DNA from: a virus
Virus record (IMG/VR): IMGVR_UViG_3300044699_000106
Coordinates: 1-39,416 of that record
Length of the DNA: 39,416 nt
Strand: one strand, 5' to 3'
Of the stretch, positions 1 through 38,393 are shown piece after piece. Position 1 is the first letter of the stretch, and each line of letters starts with the position of its first letter. Both the position numbers and the translations under genes were made by a program. Below the pieces are notes generated by a model, which ran no database searches, had not been told where the DNA came from, and saw only the letters and a program-made list of their open reading frames with translations.

Positions 1-1028
1 AGATCGATGAGCTGACCACGCGGCTGAAGTACCTGATCAAGGCCTGCAAGGTGGTGGGGGCCTACGACAAGAATTCCACCGCGCTGGGCCGCATCTTCAT
101 GGAAGGCATGGAGAACCAGATGCTGCCGGTCGACAACTGGGCGGCCTTTGCCGAGAAGGGCGGCATCAAGGGCCAGATGGACTTCGTCCCGCTGGAGGTG
201 ATCGCCAACGTGATCCAGAGCTTGACCCAGCAGCGCGACGTGCTCAAGGGCAACCTCTACGAGGTGCTGGGCATCGGCGACATCATGCGCGGCATGACCA
301 ACCCCGACGAGACGCTCGGCGCGCAGCAGCTGAAGGCCCAGTTCGGTGGCAACCGGCTGCAGTTCAAGCAGCAGGCGATCGGCGGCTGGGTGGCGAGCGG
401 CCAGCGCATCCGCGCCCAGGTCATCTGCGACAAGTTCCAGCCGCAGACCATCATCGAGCGCTCCAACATCATGCGATCGCCCGATGCCGCCATGGCGCAG
501 GAGGCGGTGCAGATGCTCAAGGAGGCGGGCACGAGCAAGTTCTACCGCATCACCGTCGAGGCCGAGGCGATGGCCATGGTGGATTGGGCACAAGAGCGTG
601 ACAGCAGGACGCAGTTCATGCAGGCGGTCGGCGGCTTCGTCCAGGCGGTCGGCCCGCTGCTGGAGCAGAACAAGTCCGCGGCACCCGCCATTCTGCAGAT
701 GATGAAGTGGGGCCTGGGCGGCTTCCGCGTCTCCAAGGAGATCGAGACGGTGCTCGATCAGGCGATCGCGGCGGCGACGCAGGAGATGAACCAGCCCGAG
801 CCGCCGAACATGGAAATGCAGGCCAAGGTCGACAAGGACAAGGCGAGCGCCACCAAGGACAAGAGCCAAGCCGTCAAGAACCTCGCCGAGGCCCACGTCA
901 AGGGTGCAGAAGTTGCCCTGGCGGCCGGCATGGGAGCCAACGCCGGCCCGGGTGGCATGCCGATGCAGCCGCCGCCTCCGGTGGCACCATTGCAACCCGC
1001 GCCGATGGGCGGCGCGCCCATGCAATAG
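1..1028 (+). CDS. Portal protein, C-terminal part (gene continues from 38393)
   Basis: This is the second part of the portal gene that starts at 38393. The partial codon at the window end (c) plus the first two bases here (ag) makes a glutamine codon, and the frame then runs unbroken to the stop at 1026-1028, giving 683 residues in all. Portal proteins form the dodecameric ring at one capsid vertex through which DNA enters and leaves. This part ends in a lysine-rich stretch (about residues 600-630) and a Met/Pro/Gly-rich tail, both common at the ends of podovirus portals. The ATG/GTG codons near position 51 are internal, not starts. The portal assignment rests on position between terminase and scaffold and on general resemblance. 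Confidence 0.85.
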   Translation, partial: IDELTTRLKYLIKACKVVGAYDKNSTALGRIFMEGMENQMLPVDNWAAFAEKGGIKGQMDFVPLEVIANVIQSLTQQRDVLKGNLYEVLGIGDIMRGMTNPDETLGAQQLKAQFGGNRLQFKQQAIGGWVASGQRIRAQVICDKFQPQTIIERSNIMRSPDAAMAQEAVQMLKEAGTSKFYRITVEAEAMAMVDWAQERDSRTQFMQAVGGFVQAVGPLLEQNKSAAPAILQMMKWGLGGFRVSKEIETVLDQAIAAATQEMNQPEPPNMEMQAKVDKDKASATKDKSQAVKNLAEAHVKGAEVALAAGMGANAGPGGMPMQPPPPVAPLQPAPMGGAPMQ

Positions 1029-23248: not shown

Positions 23249-23523
23249 TCAACGCAGCAGCAAGTCAATAGCGTCCCTGAAGTGTTGCGTGCTGGATATC
23301 ACGGCCACGTCGTGCCCGATCGTCGCCAGCTGGCCGTGGATCATCTTCTGGCGCGGCGAGAGCGTCGCACCGGGCACCTTGAACTCGACCAGCCAGAAGC
23401 GCCCGCCCGGCAGCAGGAAGAGCCGGTCGGGGATGCCGGTGACACCGTAGGCGAGCTTGATGGCGTGGCAGCCGCGCTTCCTGGCGTAGGCGCAGCAGGA
23501 CGCCTCCAGTAGGACTCCCTCAT
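23249..23523 (-). CDS. VRR-NUC domain nuclease
   Basis: ATG 23523 overlaps the stop of the VapE-like gene (ATGA). About 91 residues: VLLEASCCAYARKRGCHAIK, GVTGIPDRLFLLPGGRFWLVEFKVPG, then SPRQKMIHGQLATIGHDVAV. The G-x-P-D ... E-F-K pattern is the PD-(D/E)XK active site of VRR-NUC proteins, which act alone as Holliday-junction or structure-specific nucleases. One break near 23510-23518, just after the start. Length is normal for single-domain phage VRR-NUC proteins. Confidence 0.85.
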
Positions 23524-25903
23524 GCCGTGGCCGGCTTGTACAGGACCAGCTTGAAGTCCTGCACCTCGCGCATGCTGGCGTTGACGACCCAGCGCGGCAT
23601 CTTGGTCGGTGACCCTCGCCGGTCAGGTCGCGACCCTTGCCCAGCAGCCGGTCCATCGTGAGTGCCGGCACTGCCGAGCAGCTTGCCGTTCATGAAGTCC
23701 GCGTGGCATAGCTCAGCATGCCCGCGGCCCGATGATGACCTTGACCGGGTGCTGCTCCTCGTCCTGGCGGCGTTGCAGGCTCTCCTCGATCAGCTCGGCC
23801 ACCGGGCTGACCACCTCGAAGTCGCCAACATGCTCGTCGCGCATCTCCTCCTCGGCCTCGGTCAGCCACCACTGCTCGCCCTTCAGCCAGTCCGCATGGA
23901 CCTGGGCCCACAACTGCTGCACGTCCACCGCGTGGTCGACGTCGATCTTGCCGTCCACCTCGATCGGCAGGAAACGTCCGTTGCCGGTCGGGTCGCTGAG
24001 GAATTTCGGGTCGTTGACGGTGCCGCAGAAGGAGGCGCAGCGCGGCCGGCGCAGCCAGCCCTGCGCATAGGGCAGTCGGTACTCGTCCGTCTCGTTGGTG
24101 ATGAAGGCCTTCAGCGCGGAGATCTCGGCCTTCTTGAAGGTGGCATCGATCTCGCCCAGCTCCACGATCACGCCCTGCAGGGCCTCGTGGATGGAGTCGC
24201 GTGAGTTGAGGTTCAGGTGCTTGCCGATCGAGGCGAAGTCCGGCGCGAGTGACGAGAACCAGCGTGTCTTGCCGATCCGCTGCTTGCCGACCAGCACCAG
24301 CACCATGCCCTTCTGCGACTTGCGCCGGCCGGCATCCCAGCCACAACAGGCCTCCACGCCCTGCAGCAGCCAGCGGCGCAGGTACGTCCTGAACAGCACC
24401 GGGGTCGGTGTCGGCACCGACCTGCACAGGTCGTCCAGGCGGTCCTGGCCGTCCCAGGGCTTGGACAGGATCCAGTCCTGCATGGGGTGCCAGAAGTGGG
24501 AGTTGGCGATGCGCGCCAGGGCGTCGGCCAGCTCCTTCTTGTTCTTCATGCGCCCGCGGCCGAACACGTCCTCCAGGCTGCCGTGGACCATGTCCGAGAT
24601 CTCGTAGTCGGCCCGGTGGCCGAAGCGCTCCAGCTCGATGCGCCCGGCAGGATGTAGCTGGTGCCCGCGGTCATCAGGTTGAGCCGGGGCGCACCTCCAG
24701 CATCTGCAGGCCCGACTCGACGTTCTCGGCGCTGGTCGGCTGGATCGCCTTGGTCTTGCCGTCGGCGGTGTTCTCCAGGTTGGCCAGCTTGCCGATGTCG
24801 ATCAGGCCGATCGCCTGCCGCAGGGTGATGAAGTTGTAGGGGTCGGGGTGAGCTGGCCTGGGCAGCAGCAGGGGCGGCTTGGCCCGGGGCGGCCGGGCCT
24901 CGAAGGCCCGCGGCGGCGGCGGTGGTGATGGTGCTGCCTTGCGGGCCGCCATCACCTCGATGATCTCGCACAGGACGAGGCGTGTTTCCTCGCTGATCAC
25001 GTAGCCGCCGCGCCGGTTGACCGGGCCACCCTGGGCCTCGACCCAGTCGAAGAAGCGCTGCGTGTAGAGTGGCCGGTTGGCCCCCTGGCCGTGGCCGTGC
25101 TCGCAGTAGACGATACCGATGCCGGTGTCACTGTCACCGCGCTGCAGGTACTTGGCCTCGGTGCGCGGGTCAGCCGTGTGCTCCTCGGCGAACGGGCAGG
25201 CGATCGGCCACCAGCCGGCGGCGTTGCGCTTGCCGACCACGTGGCCGTTGGCCGCCAGCCAGTCGAACACCGGGTCGTCCTCGCCCATGGCCGGCGGCAT
25301 CTCGGGACGCTCGCGCGGCTTGACCACCTTGCCCGGCTTGACCTTGAGCGCCTCGGCCAGTTCCTGCAGCGTGTAAACGGTGTTCTTGTCGAAGGAGTGC
25401 AGCACCGCGGCGAAGTTGTCGCGGTCCTTCTTGTTGTTGATGGAGCCCGGCAGGCGAAACAGCCGGCAGGCCGGGCTTGCGCCCTTGTCCTGCAGGCCGG
25501 CGGCGATGAGCCCGGCATTCAGGGCGTCGGCCGCGGGGATGTCCGCGGTCCATTCCCGCAGCATGTAGCCGAGCTGGAAGTTGCCGGGCGATGTCTCCAG
25601 CACCCAGGTCGGCTCGGCCAGGATGCGCGAGCGCTCGACCTTGCTGCCGACGTCATCGACAACGATTGCTCGCACGGCGTGGGTGTCCTCGGCCTGCCGG
25701 CGGCGGGGCTTGTCGGAGGCTCCGGTGTAGAAGTACCACGGTCCGGGCGGCAGGGGCTTGCCGTCCCAGGTCCAGGACGGAAAACCCCGGCCCTCGACCT
25801 TCAGGCTGACAATGAAGTGGTGCCCGGCCGGACAACCCTCGGACAGGGTGTTGAGGAACTGGTACTGGTCCGTGCTAGAGTAGTCACCGCCGGGGGCTTG
25901 CAT
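23520..25903 (-). CDS. VapE-like primase-helicase, frame-broken
   Basis: ATG 25903 follows AGAGGATCGACTT. About 795 residues. The N-terminal ~400 residues (unbroken to 24674) resemble a primase-type region: GCPAGHHFIVSL, AIVVDDVGSK, RLFRLPGSINNKKDRDNFAA and IACPFAEEHTAD. After two single-base losses (about 24658 and 24700) the VapE domain follows: WDGQDRLDDL, LVLVGKQRIGKTRWF (Walker A), IVELGEIDATFKK, KAFITNETDEYR and GRFLPIEVDGKID. The C-terminus is scrambled between 23720 and 23600 but ends cleanly MPRWVVNASMREVQDFKLVLY. This would prime and unwind DNA for the phage polymerase. Length suits phage VapE proteins. Confidence 0.82.
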
Positions 25904-29945: not shown

Positions 29946-31035
29946 CCTGCCTTGCGTTGCCTTGCTCCGCCTATCCTTGCCTTGCCTTGCCCGGCCTGCC
30001 TTGCCCGGCCTGCCTCGCCCAGCCTGCCTTGCAGTGCCTTGCGGCGCCTAGCCCCGCCTTTCCAGACCTGACCTCGCCTTGCCTGCCTTGCGGTGCTTTG
30101 CCGGTCTGCGCCAAACCTCACCTTGCCCCGCCGCGCCTCGCCTGCCTTGCAGTGCCACGCCTTGCCGTACACCGCCACGCCTCGCCTCGCCATGCCACGC
30201 CTGCCTTGCGGTGCCATGCCCCGCTCGACCGCGCCTCGTCTCACCTTGCCCCGCCGTGCCTTGCCTGACCTGCCTCGCGGTGCCGGGCCATGCCGGGCCC
30301 AGCCCCGCCAAGACGCGCCAGTCCTAGCCCAGCCTGCCTTGCGGCGCCTGTCCCGACCTTGCCAAGCCATGCCAAGCCACGCCTCGCCTGCCTTGCAGTG
30401 CCTGTCCTAGCCTCGCCCGGCCGGGCCGAGCCAAGCCTCGCCTAGCCTGCCTTGCATTGCCCATCCAATCCTGGCCTGACCATGCCTCGCCATGCCCCGC
30501 CTGACCGGCCTTGCAGTGCCTGTCCAGACCCAACCCGGCCAAGCCACTCCAGGCCTAGCCTCGCCTGCCTTGCAGTGCCCCTCCGTGCCGCCCCCGGCCT
30601 CACCATTCCGCGCCTCGCCATGCCTGCCTTGCAGTGCCGTGCCGGGCCTTGCCTCTCCTGGCCCCGCCCCGCCACTCCTTGCCTGCCGTGCGTTGACATG
30701 CCTAGCCGGGCCAATCCCGGCCATACCTCGCCTCGCCTGCCGTGCCAGACCGGGCCAGTCCGCTCCAGTCCTAGCCCTGCCCTGCCTGCCTCGCATTGCC
30801 TTGCGGTGCCCCACCTTGCCAAGCCATGCCGCGCCGGGCCTCACCTAGCCTGCCTTGCGATGCCAAGTCACGCCGTGCCTTGCCCTACCGCGCCATGCCT
30901 CGCCGTGCCTGCCTTGCGGTGCCAAGCCTGTCCGCGCTATGCCACAACGCACCGCACCGTGCCATGCCGCGCCTGCCTTGCGGTGCCAAGCCATTCCAGT
31001 CCTAGCCCAGCCATGCCGAGCCTTGCCGCGCCTGC
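29946..31035. repeat. Hierarchical pentanucleotide array with 59-bp super-period
   Basis: About 1.09 kb made almost entirely of CCNNG pentamers (plus strand), commonly CCTTG, CCTCG, CCATG, CCAAG, CCCCG. A tetramer CCTG breaks the phase and is followed by CCTTG and CRGTG, forming a recurrent CCTGCCTTGCRGTGCC mark. The tetramer lies at 29946, 29995, 30009, 30023, 30082, 30141, 30200, 30269, 30333, 30387, 30446, 30505 (as CCGG), 30564, 30623, 30682, 30736, 30785, 30849, 30908, 30972 and 31031. Ten of the 20 intervals are exactly 59 bp and all equal 4+5n. It fills the space between two leftward genes completely. Open reading frames across it on both strands reflect lack of stop codons, not coding. 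Confidence 0.93.
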
Positions 31036-35394: not shown

Positions 35395-35416
35395 ATTATG
35401 CAGCCTGGGGCTTCAC
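35395..35416 (-). promoter_or_regulatory. Palindromic promoter opening the leftward unit
   Basis: Leftward: GTGAAGCCCCAGGCTG followed by CATAAT, 34 bp upstream of the start codon at 35361. Upstream is an inverted repeat TTGCA-CTA-TGCAA (leftward reading) and the word TGTGCGAAAT. This is the most upstream member of the family. Confidence 0.62.
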
Positions 35417-35455: not shown

Positions 35456-35760
35456 GCTCAAGCAGGGGGCCGCGACACCCCCCCACCCCACGCCGCAGCG
35501 CCCACAACCTGCCCACAGCCTTGTGCAGGGAAGGCTGTGGACCCCTCTTTCATAGGGGCGTCCACAGGGTCCACAGCCATCCACAACCCTATTACTACTA
35601 AAAGGAAGTCTTTTTAGGCTAGTGCTCTCGCGCGCGCGCGCGTGTACGCGCGCGGCGTACGCGCGCGCGCGCGCGAGAAAAAAGCCGCCCCGCCTACGTA
35701 AAAAAGGCTGTGGATGGCTGGGTACCCTGTGGACCTGTGGACCCCCGCGGCGGCCGGCGA
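35456..35760. other. Divergent non-coding region with nested inverted repeats; candidate origin
   Basis: No gene here. Outer arms: 35560-35588 and 35706-35734 are inverted repeats matching at 26 of 29 positions, each carrying GTCCACAGGGT and CATCCACA, close to DnaA boxes. Inside is an A+T-rich stretch (35588-35616), then a near-perfect 21-bp GC hairpin (35627-35647 with 35657-35677, one mismatch) of alternating CG, able to form a cruciform or Z-DNA, then AAAAAA. A further perfect 10-bp hairpin, CCACAGCCTT/AAGGCTGTGG, lies at 35513-35540, and TGTGGA words continue to 35745. Origin function is inference from this combination and the divergent transcription. Confidence 0.6.
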
Positions 35761-35788
35761 TTGACCCCGCGGCCGGCGCATGTATGCT
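35761..35788 (+). promoter_or_regulatory. Rightward promoter ahead of the terminase genes
   Basis: TTGACC (35761-35766), 16-bp spacer, TATGCT (35783-35788). This is the only good sigma-70 match facing right in the divergent region. Its -10 box overlaps the ATG at 35780, which argues for the later start of the following gene. Confidence 0.5.
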
Positions 35789-35830
35789 GGCCGGCTGGGC
35801 CTGTCGCCGGCATGGGACTACATTCCGGGC

Positions 35831-36253
35831 ATGCAATTTGCGCCAAATGCACCAAACGAGTGCGCTGACCGCACAGGTGAACAGCTGGCGCTGTTCCCCA
35901 GTAAAGAAGTTGACTCTGTTAAGCCCAAGCGGCGGCCCCCCGCGGCCGGCATGGGCAGGCCCAAGGGCTCGACCAACAAGGCAACCCGCAGCTTCCGCGA
36001 GACGATCGAGCGGCTGCTGCATGACAACCGCGACAACGTCGCTGTCTGGCTGCGGCAGATTGCCGAGGGCATCCCGCCCGTGATCGATCCGGCCACCGGC
36101 AAGGTGCTGGTGACCGGTCGCCCTGGCGATCCTGTGGCGGCCATGACACGCCTGGGCTACCTCGCCGAGTTCGCCGCCCCGCGCCTCTCCCGCGTTGAGC
36201 AGGTCGGCGAGGGTGGCGGGCCGCTCACCATCGTCGTGCGCAAGGAAGCCTGA
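35831..36253 (+). CDS. Terminase small subunit (putative)
   Basis: 140 residues from ATG 35831; the frame is also open from ATG 35780 (157 residues), but that codon lies inside the likely -10 box. The core GMGRPKGSTNKATRSFRETI followed by LLHDNRDNVAVWLRQIAEG and DPVAAMTRLGYLAEFAAPRLSR is the DNA-binding N-terminus plus helical body seen in phage terminase small subunits that precede the large subunit. It recognises the packaging site and stimulates the motor. Two genes separate it from the large subunit by name, but all overlap, so they are one operon. Confidence 0.68.
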   Translation: MQFAPNAPNECADRTGEQLALFPSKEVDSVKPKRRPPAAGMGRPKGSTNKATRSFRETIERLLHDNRDNVAVWLRQIAEGIPPVIDPATGKVLVTGRPGDPVAAMTRLGYLAEFAAPRLSRVEQVGEGGGPLTIVVRKEA

Positions 36254-36888
36254 TGGACCTCGCGACTCATCCGCTCTACCACGATGAGCAGTTGGTGGCT
36301 GCCGAGACAGCCAAGCACGTGCGTGCCGGCCGCACCGTCTTCCAGGTCTGGCAGGCTGCCGGCAACGAGCGCGACCACTCCCTCGTCGTGCTCGAAGCGC
36401 TCGACCTGCCCCTGCGCGCCCGGGTGCTCTCGCTCGGCTGCGGCGTGGGCGGCATGGAGCGCTACTGGCAGGCCGCACGGCCCGACCTGCGCTTCACCCT
36501 GGCCAACCAGTCCGAGAGCCAGCTGCAGGCCTGCCTGTGCCCTGGCAGGCGTGTCCGCATGGACGCCGAGGACCAGGGGCTGCCCGCGGGCGGCGACTAC
36601 CACTGCGTGCTGGTGGCCTACCTGCTGGGCCACGTCAGCCCCGAGCGCGTGCTGCTCAACGCGGTGCGGGCGTGTAAACGCGGCGGGCTGGTGGTGGTGC
36701 TCGACGTGTTCGACGCCAGCGAGGACTTCGCCGAGGGCATGGGCTACGACGCCCCGACCTGCGACCTGATGCGCCTGGGCGGCTTCGAGGAGGTCGGGCA
36801 GTGCTGGTCGCTGGCCGACTTCGGCGAGGAGGCGCTGCCCGGCTGGATCCACGAGGCCGACCCACGCATGTGGGTGCGCCATGTCTAG
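36253..36888 (+). CDS. Class I SAM-dependent methyltransferase
   Basis: 211 residues; ATG 36253 overlaps the previous stop. LSLGCGVGG (59-67) is the SAM-binding motif I; then FTLANQSESQLQAC, MDAEDQGLPAG, CVLVAYLLGHVSPERVLLNAV and GGLVVVLDVFDAS follow in the order of a small-molecule-type methyltransferase (UbiE/cyclopropane synthase-like) rather than a DNA methylase: no DPPY or PC motif is present. It sits between small and large terminase. Substrate unknown. A CGTGTAAACG copy at 36671-36680 encodes ACKR. Confidence 0.8.
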   Translation: MDLATHPLYHDEQLVAAETAKHVRAGRTVFQVWQAAGNERDHSLVVLEALDLPLRARVLSLGCGVGGMERYWQAARPDLRFTLANQSESQLQACLCPGRRVRMDAEDQGLPAGGDYHCVLVAYLLGHVSPERVLLNAVRACKRGGLVVVLDVFDASEDFAEGMGYDAPTCDLMRLGGFEEVGQCWSLADFGEEALPGWIHEADPRMWVRHV

Positions 36889-37042
36889 GCTGTGGCGCCT
36901 CACGGGCGGCAGGCCCATGGTCTGGCTGGGCGCACTCGCCCGCGGCGACGGCACCGTGGTCACCTACTGGATCGACCGGCTGGGGCGGCGCTGGATGGCC
37001 CGCTCGGCCTGGGCGAAGGACAGGGTGCGGCTCGATGGCTGA
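36881..37042 (+). CDS. Small basic protein between methyltransferase and terminase
   Basis: 53 residues, overlapping the methyltransferase end by 8 bp and the terminase start by 8 bp. Sequence MSRLWRLTGGRPMVWLGALA, then GTVVTYWIDRLGRRWMARSA: Trp- and Arg-rich, strand-like. Overlap on both sides and an unbroken frame argue for a real, coupled gene. No family recognised. Confidence 0.6.
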   Translation: MSRLWRLTGGRPMVWLGALARGDGTVVTYWIDRLGRRWMARSAWAKDRVRLDG

Positions 37043-38393
37043 GCTGGTCATCCCCAACGGCTTCACCCCGCGCGAGCCGCAGCGCGAGCTGATGCGCTAC
37101 TTCGACCGCGGCGGCCTGCGTGCGGCGGCCTGCTGGCCCAGGCGCTACGGCAAGGACCTGACCATGGTCCACCAGACGGTGAAGGCCATGTTTGAGCGGC
37201 CGGGGATGTACTTCCACATGCTGCCCAATCACAAGCAGGCCAGGAAGGTCATCTGGGACGGCTTCGACAACACCGGCCAGAAGTCGCTCGACGTGGCGAT
37301 GCCCAAGCAGATCCGCGAGCAGACCAATCAGACGGAGATGAAGATCACGCTGCGCAACGGCGCGATCTGGCAGCTGGTCGGCTCGGATTACTACGACTCG
37401 CTGGTGGGGGCCAACCCGTTCGGCATCGTGATGTCCGAGGCGGCGCTGTCCGATCCACGGGCCTGGAGCATCTTTCGCCCGATCCTGGCCGGCAACGGCG
37501 GCTGGGCCGGCTTCATCTCGACGCCGCGCGGCTTCAACCACTTCTGGGACATCATGAAGCTGGCCAAGGCCAGCGACACGTGGTTCCACTCGCACCTGAC
37601 GGTGCGCGACACCCAGCACATCAGCCCCACGGTGCTGGCCGACGAGCAGCGCGAGATGCCCGACGAGCTGTTCCGCCAGGAGTACATGTGCGACTTCTCC
37701 GCGGCCAATGTCGGCTCGATCTTCGGCCGCTACATCGAGCAGTGCGAGCGCGAGGGCCGCATCGGCCCCTTGGACCTTGCCTTCGAGGGCGAGGTCTGGG
37801 TCACCTCCGACATCGGCTACCGGGACAAGGCCAGCTTCGTCTGGTGGCGCAGGATGCGCGGCGGCTTCGAGATCTTCCACTACGACGACGGCTCCGGCAT
37901 GGACGCCGAGGACTGGATCCAGCGCCTCGCCAAGCAGCCCCACGCCGACAAGCTGGTGCTGCCGCATGACGCACGCGCCAAGAGCTTCCAGTCCAAGCGC
38001 ACGGTCGTGGAGACGTTCCTGGCCGAGCCGCCCTGGGCCGGCTGCGAGGTGCGTGTAAACGGGCAGCGCCGCAAGCACGACTCGATCAATGCCGGGCGGG
38101 TGATGCTGCGCCGGCTGCGCATCAGCAGCGCGGCGGTCTGCGAGCCGTTCCTGGAGGCGATGCGGGCCTACAGCTTCAAGTACGACGAGGAAACCAAGGC
38201 CTTCTCCTCCGAGCCTAACCACGACTGGAGCAGCCACTGCGCCGACGCCTTCATGGAGGGTGCGGCGGTGCTCATCGAGCTGGAGCCGCCGCTGCCGGCC
38301 AAGCGCATCATCATCCCGCCGCTGCACCACGCCTTCACGCTGGAGCAGCTCTATGACACGGTCGGGCCGCAGGCCAACAACGGAAGGCTGTGA
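37035..38393 (+). CDS. Terminase large subunit
   Basis: 452 residues, unbroken, from ATG 37035. ATPase motifs: WPRRYGKD (34-41, an Arg-rich Walker A) and IVMSEAA (131-137, Walker B with Glu135). The nuclease domain has VTSDIGYRDKASF (Asp259) and an acidic HDWSSHCADAF near the C-terminus. It cuts concatemeric DNA and pumps it into the prohead through the portal. The frame is open upstream of the ATG but that part overlaps the preceding small gene. Stop and portal start overlap (TGATG). The length is at the short end for terminases. A CGTGTAAACG copy at 38052-38061 encodes RVNG. Confidence 0.92.
   Translation: MAELVIPNGFTPREPQRELMRYFDRGGLRAAACWPRRYGKDLTMVHQTVKAMFERPGMYFHMLPNHKQARKVIWDGFDNTGQKSLDVAMPKQIREQTNQTEMKITLRNGAIWQLVGSDYYDSLVGANPFGIVMSEAALSDPRAWSIFRPILAGNGGWAGFISTPRGFNHFWDIMKLAKASDTWFHSHLTVRDTQHISPTVLADEQREMPDELFRQEYMCDFSAANVGSIFGRYIEQCEREGRIGPLDLAFEGEVWVTSDIGYRDKASFVWWRRMRGGFEIFHYDDGSGMDAEDWIQRLAKQPHADKLVLPHDARAKSFQSKRTVVETFLAEPPWAGCEVRVNGQRRKHDSINAGRVMLRRLRISSAAVCEPFLEAMRAYSFKYDEETKAFSSEPNHDWSSHCADAFMEGAAVLIELEPPLPAKRIIIPPLHHAFTLEQLYDTVGPQANNGRL

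Follow-up and report, generated by a model that had tools for sequence, protein, structure and literature searches.

INTRODUCTION

Origins of PICIs carry two sets of iterons that flank an A+T-rich region (PMC6092414), and SaPI Rep and SCC Cch2 each recognize iterons by a C-terminal domain (PMC7581432). In the PICI and SaPI origins that work with Pri-Rep (PMC6092414), the iteron sets are short, the initiator is a helicase accompanied by, and sometimes fused to, a primase, the words vary between elements, and the origin lies directly downstream of rep. The elements themselves are satellites without a full set of virion genes. For the self-loading helicases SCCmec Cch2 and SaPI Rep, binding was tested, and short direct repeats at the putative origin are recognized through the C-terminal domain (PMC7581432). 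In phage P4, which carries ori and crr, primase and helicase are joined in one protein, alpha. The alpha protein reportedly also includes an origin-binding part, and P4 is said to have two separate iteron sites. The origin oriV of RSF1010, which is served by the RepB' primase and the RepA helicase, combines a hairpin with iterons, and the iterons are reportedly read by a separate protein, RepC.

Here, we describe a repeat region in a virus record from IMG/VR, 39,416 bases long, the whole of which was analyzed and is called the window. The region resembles the PICI/SaPI origins in its two short iteron sets around an A+T-rich stretch, in its proposed pairing with a primase and helicase, and in words that vary between phages. 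It differs in that the proposed initiator is encoded at 23.5-25.9 kb whereas the array lies at 35.5 kb, between early and packaging genes, in that the helicase is of the VapE type with a RepB-like primase, and in that an alternating-CG hairpin lies inside the putative origin. Moreover, the window has the gene content of a full phage, including terminase and portal genes, and thus the resemblance is one of origin and not of element. Cch2 and SaPI Rep belong to other helicase families, and the recognition that was tested there is predicted here from co-variation and a winged-helix model. As in P4, primase and helicase form one protein in relatives of the window phage; unlike P4, the search for word clusters revealed no further array of similar size. 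The likeness to RSF1010 lies in the RepB-like primase domain (PF16793) and the hairpin with iterons, and in some sister phages the helicase is instead of the AAA_25 type. A RepC-like gene was not identified in the window phage.

RESULTS

Repeats between divergent gene units

The portal gene reads in frame across both ends of the record, which therefore closes to a circle, and the window is the closed 39.4-kb genome of an uncultured phage. Genes on the minus strand, which run from 35.4 to about 23.5 kb, encode among other proteins a DUF2800 exonuclease, a PolA DNA polymerase, a RepB-like primase and a VapE helicase, and the plus strand opens at 35.8 kb with a small-terminase-like gene followed by the large terminase. 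The repeat region separates these early genes from the divergently oriented packaging genes, as the original prediction had placed it. A DNA search of the repeat region against known phages gave no match, Rfam matches all fell below curated thresholds, and terminase identity to the nearest cultured relatives is no more than about 35-40%. No close relative of the window was found in bacterial genomes, and thus no host or prophage is assigned. The early region also has a strong local GC skew (-0.30) at 30001-31000. The features considered below are:

23520..23712, minus strand: residual pieces, in other frames, of the predicted DNA-binding domain (type I) at the C terminus of the primase-helicase
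23713..24591, minus strand: VapE helicase part of the same gene, beyond an apparent frameshift
24674..25903, minus strand: N-terminal part of the primase-helicase (RepB_primase), a single ORF of ~780 aa in relatives
35402..35412, no strand: AGCCTGGGGCT, palindromic and operator-like, upstream of the first early (minus-strand) gene, read directly
35513..35540, no strand: perfect 10-bp hairpin CCACAGCCTT/AAGGCTGTGG with an inverted pair of words
35560..35588, minus strand: left iteron set, TCCACA at 35561, 35570 and 35580 (9 and 10 bp apart), facing the center
35585..35614, no strand: proposed unwinding element, an A+T-rich stretch (70% A+T, against 67% G+C for the genome)
35626..35678, no strand: alternating-CG inverted repeat, 23 of 24 pairs, 5-nt loop
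35706..35741, plus strand: right iteron set, TGTGGA at 35709, 35728 and 35736, inverted relative to the left set
35761..35788, plus strand: promoter-like TTGACC-16-TATGCT ahead of the packaging genes (1 found versus 0.1 expected)
35780..36253, plus strand: small-terminase-like gene, start perhaps at 35831, assigned by position and a GRxKGxxN motif (no match in Pfam or PHROG searches)
36801..38393, plus strand: large terminase, the query for finding relatives

The outer arms (35560-35588 and 35706-35734) match in inverted orientation at exactly the predicted 26 of 29 positions, and the best inverted arm pair among 60 simulated 3-kb sequences, generated with a second-order Markov model of the window, reached 22 of 29. 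A repeat search lengthens the pair to 34 nt at 85%. Two CCACA/TGTGG words had been proposed for each arm; such words are present, but the left arm holds three copies of TCCACA. The window word is TCCACAGCC, and 7 of the 15 copies of TGTGGA in the whole 39.4 kb are packed into 206 bp here, while the genome-wide total is the number expected by chance; within the window, the clustering is confined to this gap. The CG stem, predicted as 21 bp (20/21) with a 9-nt loop, exists but is longer and has a smaller loop. The separate hairpin is as perfect as claimed, the A+T-rich stretch lies between the two word sets, and, in agreement with the prediction that the hairpin is not an intrinsic terminator, no terminator-like site was found here. 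Finally, the region folds far better than shuffled sequence (z = -11.6). We conclude that the repeats are genuine and greatly exceed what chance would produce.

The same gap in related phages

Relatives were gathered by the large terminase, with helicase relatives added later, and 16 further records carried an array. The layout shared by the 17 records consists of short words (6-10 bp) in two facing sets, with an A+T-rich stretch between them in most relatives and often a GC hairpin. With word patterns picked by hand for each genome, 131 of 136 sites agreed in polarity, such that left and right sets face each other, and neighboring words were mostly 8-13 bp apart. In a single-genome test, 11 of the 17 arrays had a top repeated 7-mer that surpassed every one of 300 shuffles; the words of L077, L014, L135 and G018 are degenerate, score weakly in such tests and were read by comparison with the others. 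Word clustering was strongest in this gap in the relatives tested, and an exact word-pair search across all viral contigs was unspecific. The GC hairpin varied and was strongest in the window, and alternating CG was strong there and in some relatives but weak or absent in others.

The layout is retained in the closest relative, L077 (terminase 94%), together with the alternating-CG hairpin and, as judged by eye, the promoter-like TTGACC-16-TATGCT, and the words of L077 are CCACAAC/CCACAGC. Words in other relatives are GAACACCT, GAACAGCC/GGACAGCC, GCACCAGT/GCACTAGT and GCATGAGTCA, and further ones GGAACAC, CACAGGC and CCCCAGG. Conservation in relatives, which had been suggested as a check, therefore holds for the layout but not for the word, which, since it differs between phages, cannot be taken for a DnaA box. 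L019 and L040 share 150 bp of identical flank but have no similarity across the array itself, and the TerL proteins of G012, G018 and G023 are just 11-13% apart, yet the three phages have three words and three types of initiator C terminus. Because of this abrupt switch and these differences in word and tip, we infer that the array is exchanged as a module, probably together with its reader.

Other elements accompany the arrays. In one subgroup of arrays, a CTACGCCCGGTAG-like conserved segment is interspersed among the changing words of L019, L030, L031, L032, L035, L037, L040, L135, L203 and G018. Stenotrophomonas phage BUCT555 was considered as a parallel and set aside: its divergent layout is the same, but it has no clear facing arrays, and its primase-helicase is built differently (Prim-Pol, PriCT_2, DUF5906).

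A second kind of array occupies the same gap in G001, G008 and G014 and in the partial contigs L012, L028, L046 and L049, where it is single and palindrome-like (e.g., TGTCCTCTTGTCCTAGGACAAAAGGACA), often with a CG hairpin in the gap as well. In G001 and G008 it is paired with a PriCT_2 plus AAA_25 primase-helicase, and G014 encodes a protein that by eye resembles theirs. The replication module thus changes although the gap does not move, as would also be expected of an origin. An origin-like region of this second type was seen before the small terminase in L004, L012, L017, L028, L046, L049 and G014, with a CG hairpin and palindrome-like words GGACA/TGTCC, or AAAGTGACA in G014. The first early gene beside the array in relatives (e.g., L019 ~50-440, minus strand) encodes a small conserved protein that by eye looks like a ribbon-helix-helix protein and weakly matches an AT-hook; this regulator-like gene accompanies both origin types and is missing from the window.

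Words co-vary with the C terminus of a primase-helicase

The primase-helicase is one ORF in six relatives. In the window, its gene (23520-25903, minus strand) is interrupted by two or more apparent frameshifts, one near 24.6-24.7 kb, one near 23.7 kb, and perhaps one more downstream of ~23.7 kb; these would be assembly indel errors or signs of a decaying gene. Consistent with a VapE-type protein, the intact ORF of relatives carries PF05272 and PF16793, the latter just under the cut-off in one of two relatives' intact ORFs, and the primase and VapE parts of the window, scored separately, are each above cut-off. The solved protein nearest to the helicase part, by sequence only, is a VapE (7pds, E 1e-28). 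The last ~85 aa sort into four types among relatives, and the broken C-terminal pieces of the window resemble type I, as in G005 and G007. This domain is predicted to be a winged helix (pLDDT 82-91 in that part). Structures that match it do so weakly (Z below 5), although almost all of them belong to winged-helix proteins, and Foldseek with the domain gave no significant match.

Co-variation of word and protein was measured in the only eight genomes where an array occurs alongside an intact initiator; the window was left out because its initiator is broken by the apparent frameshifts. Word distance correlated with distance in the C-terminal 85 aa (Mantel rho 0.70, p 0.002), for consensus words that were hand-aligned after the types had been seen. 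An alignment-free version based on repeated 6-mers is therefore the fairer test, and here too the C-terminal domain ranked first (rho 0.59, p 0.002). Correlation was weaker for the N-terminal primase part of the initiator (p about 0.02) and for an SprT-like gene (p 0.02-0.03), and much less or absent in these eight genomes for TerL, TerS, DNA polymerase, the helicase core, DUF6011 and the exonuclease. The pattern suggests that the C-terminal winged helix binds the words.

DISCUSSION

The architecture is conserved in this gap and the word co-varies with an initiator-like protein, and thus an origin is the best-supported reading. By sequence, structural model and analogy, the repeat region is most likely the phage's replication origin, with facing iterons probably read by its own primase-VapE helicase. 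The original prediction of a likely origin is upheld in that respect, and its DnaA-like words are not. Against an origin stand the 10 kb between initiator gene and array and the weak skew of the window, which had been proposed as a check: the cumulative minimum lies near 31.7 kb, about 4 kb from the site. In G012, G013 and G018, GC skew peaks within 1.3-2.2 kb of the site and reaches its minimum at a distance of 23-25 kb, a pattern that could stem from strand-biased transcription.

The alternative that survives best, though quite unlikely, is that the words are operators at which a phage transcription regulator controls two divergent promoters, and that replication does not start here. The array does lie between divergent units with a promoter-like sequence at its right end, and word arrays can evolve along with repressors. 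However, similarity of the adjacent regulator-like gene is unrelated to word similarity in two tests (rho 0.03 and -0.35), and the array is still there in the window, where that gene is absent. Moreover, the early promoter already has a different conserved element, AGCCTGGGGCT, found in the same or near-same form in most relatives though the nearby words differ, and the words instead follow the replication helicase. It is very unlikely that the array is a packaging site, pac or cos, read by the adjoining small terminase. Sites of the pac type are often near terS, and the array is directly upstream of the small-terminase-like gene, but small-terminase similarity does not follow the words (rho 0.22 and -0.09 in two tests). 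Slightly less probable still is an origin that host DnaA would open: TCCACA does correspond to the right half of a DnaA box, but clustered 9-mer boxes are absent, with no exact TTWTNCACA in the window and no one-mismatch site inside the arms, and close relatives hold unrelated words, such as GCATGAGTCA and GAACACCT, at the same spot. That the CG palindrome is a hairpin-telomere resolution site, as the alternating CG core of protelomerase sites might suggest, is barely credible, since the portal gene runs in frame across the genome ends, the palindrome is looped and not constant among relatives, and the iterons would be left unexplained.

Under the preferred reading, that of an origin read by the primase-VapE helicase, the C-terminal winged helix would bind the words of both facing sets, and two helicase rings would load face to face at the iteron sets and melt the A+T-rich stretch. 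The fused RepB-like primase would then start synthesis for the phage's own PolA polymerase. The CG hairpin may, as a guess, aid priming or unwinding; the CG repeat could extrude as a cruciform, adopt Z-DNA, prime synthesis or simply be tolerated. Initiator and iterons would change jointly, by mutation and by cassette replacement, and the best reading of the sequences is that the pair diversifies and is swapped as a cassette.

A broader proposal, which we regard as doubtful, is that this is a virulent phage lineage with a fixed origin architecture and a rapidly retuned, cassette-swapped initiator-iteron code that defines "incompatibility groups," with the CG hairpin as a loading or priming element. 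If so, such groups may prevent satellites or competing sister phages from making use of the same replication machinery. An iteron origin in full phages would connect satellite and phage replication, and matched initiator tips and words may offer a route to how a winged helix shifts its DNA specificity.
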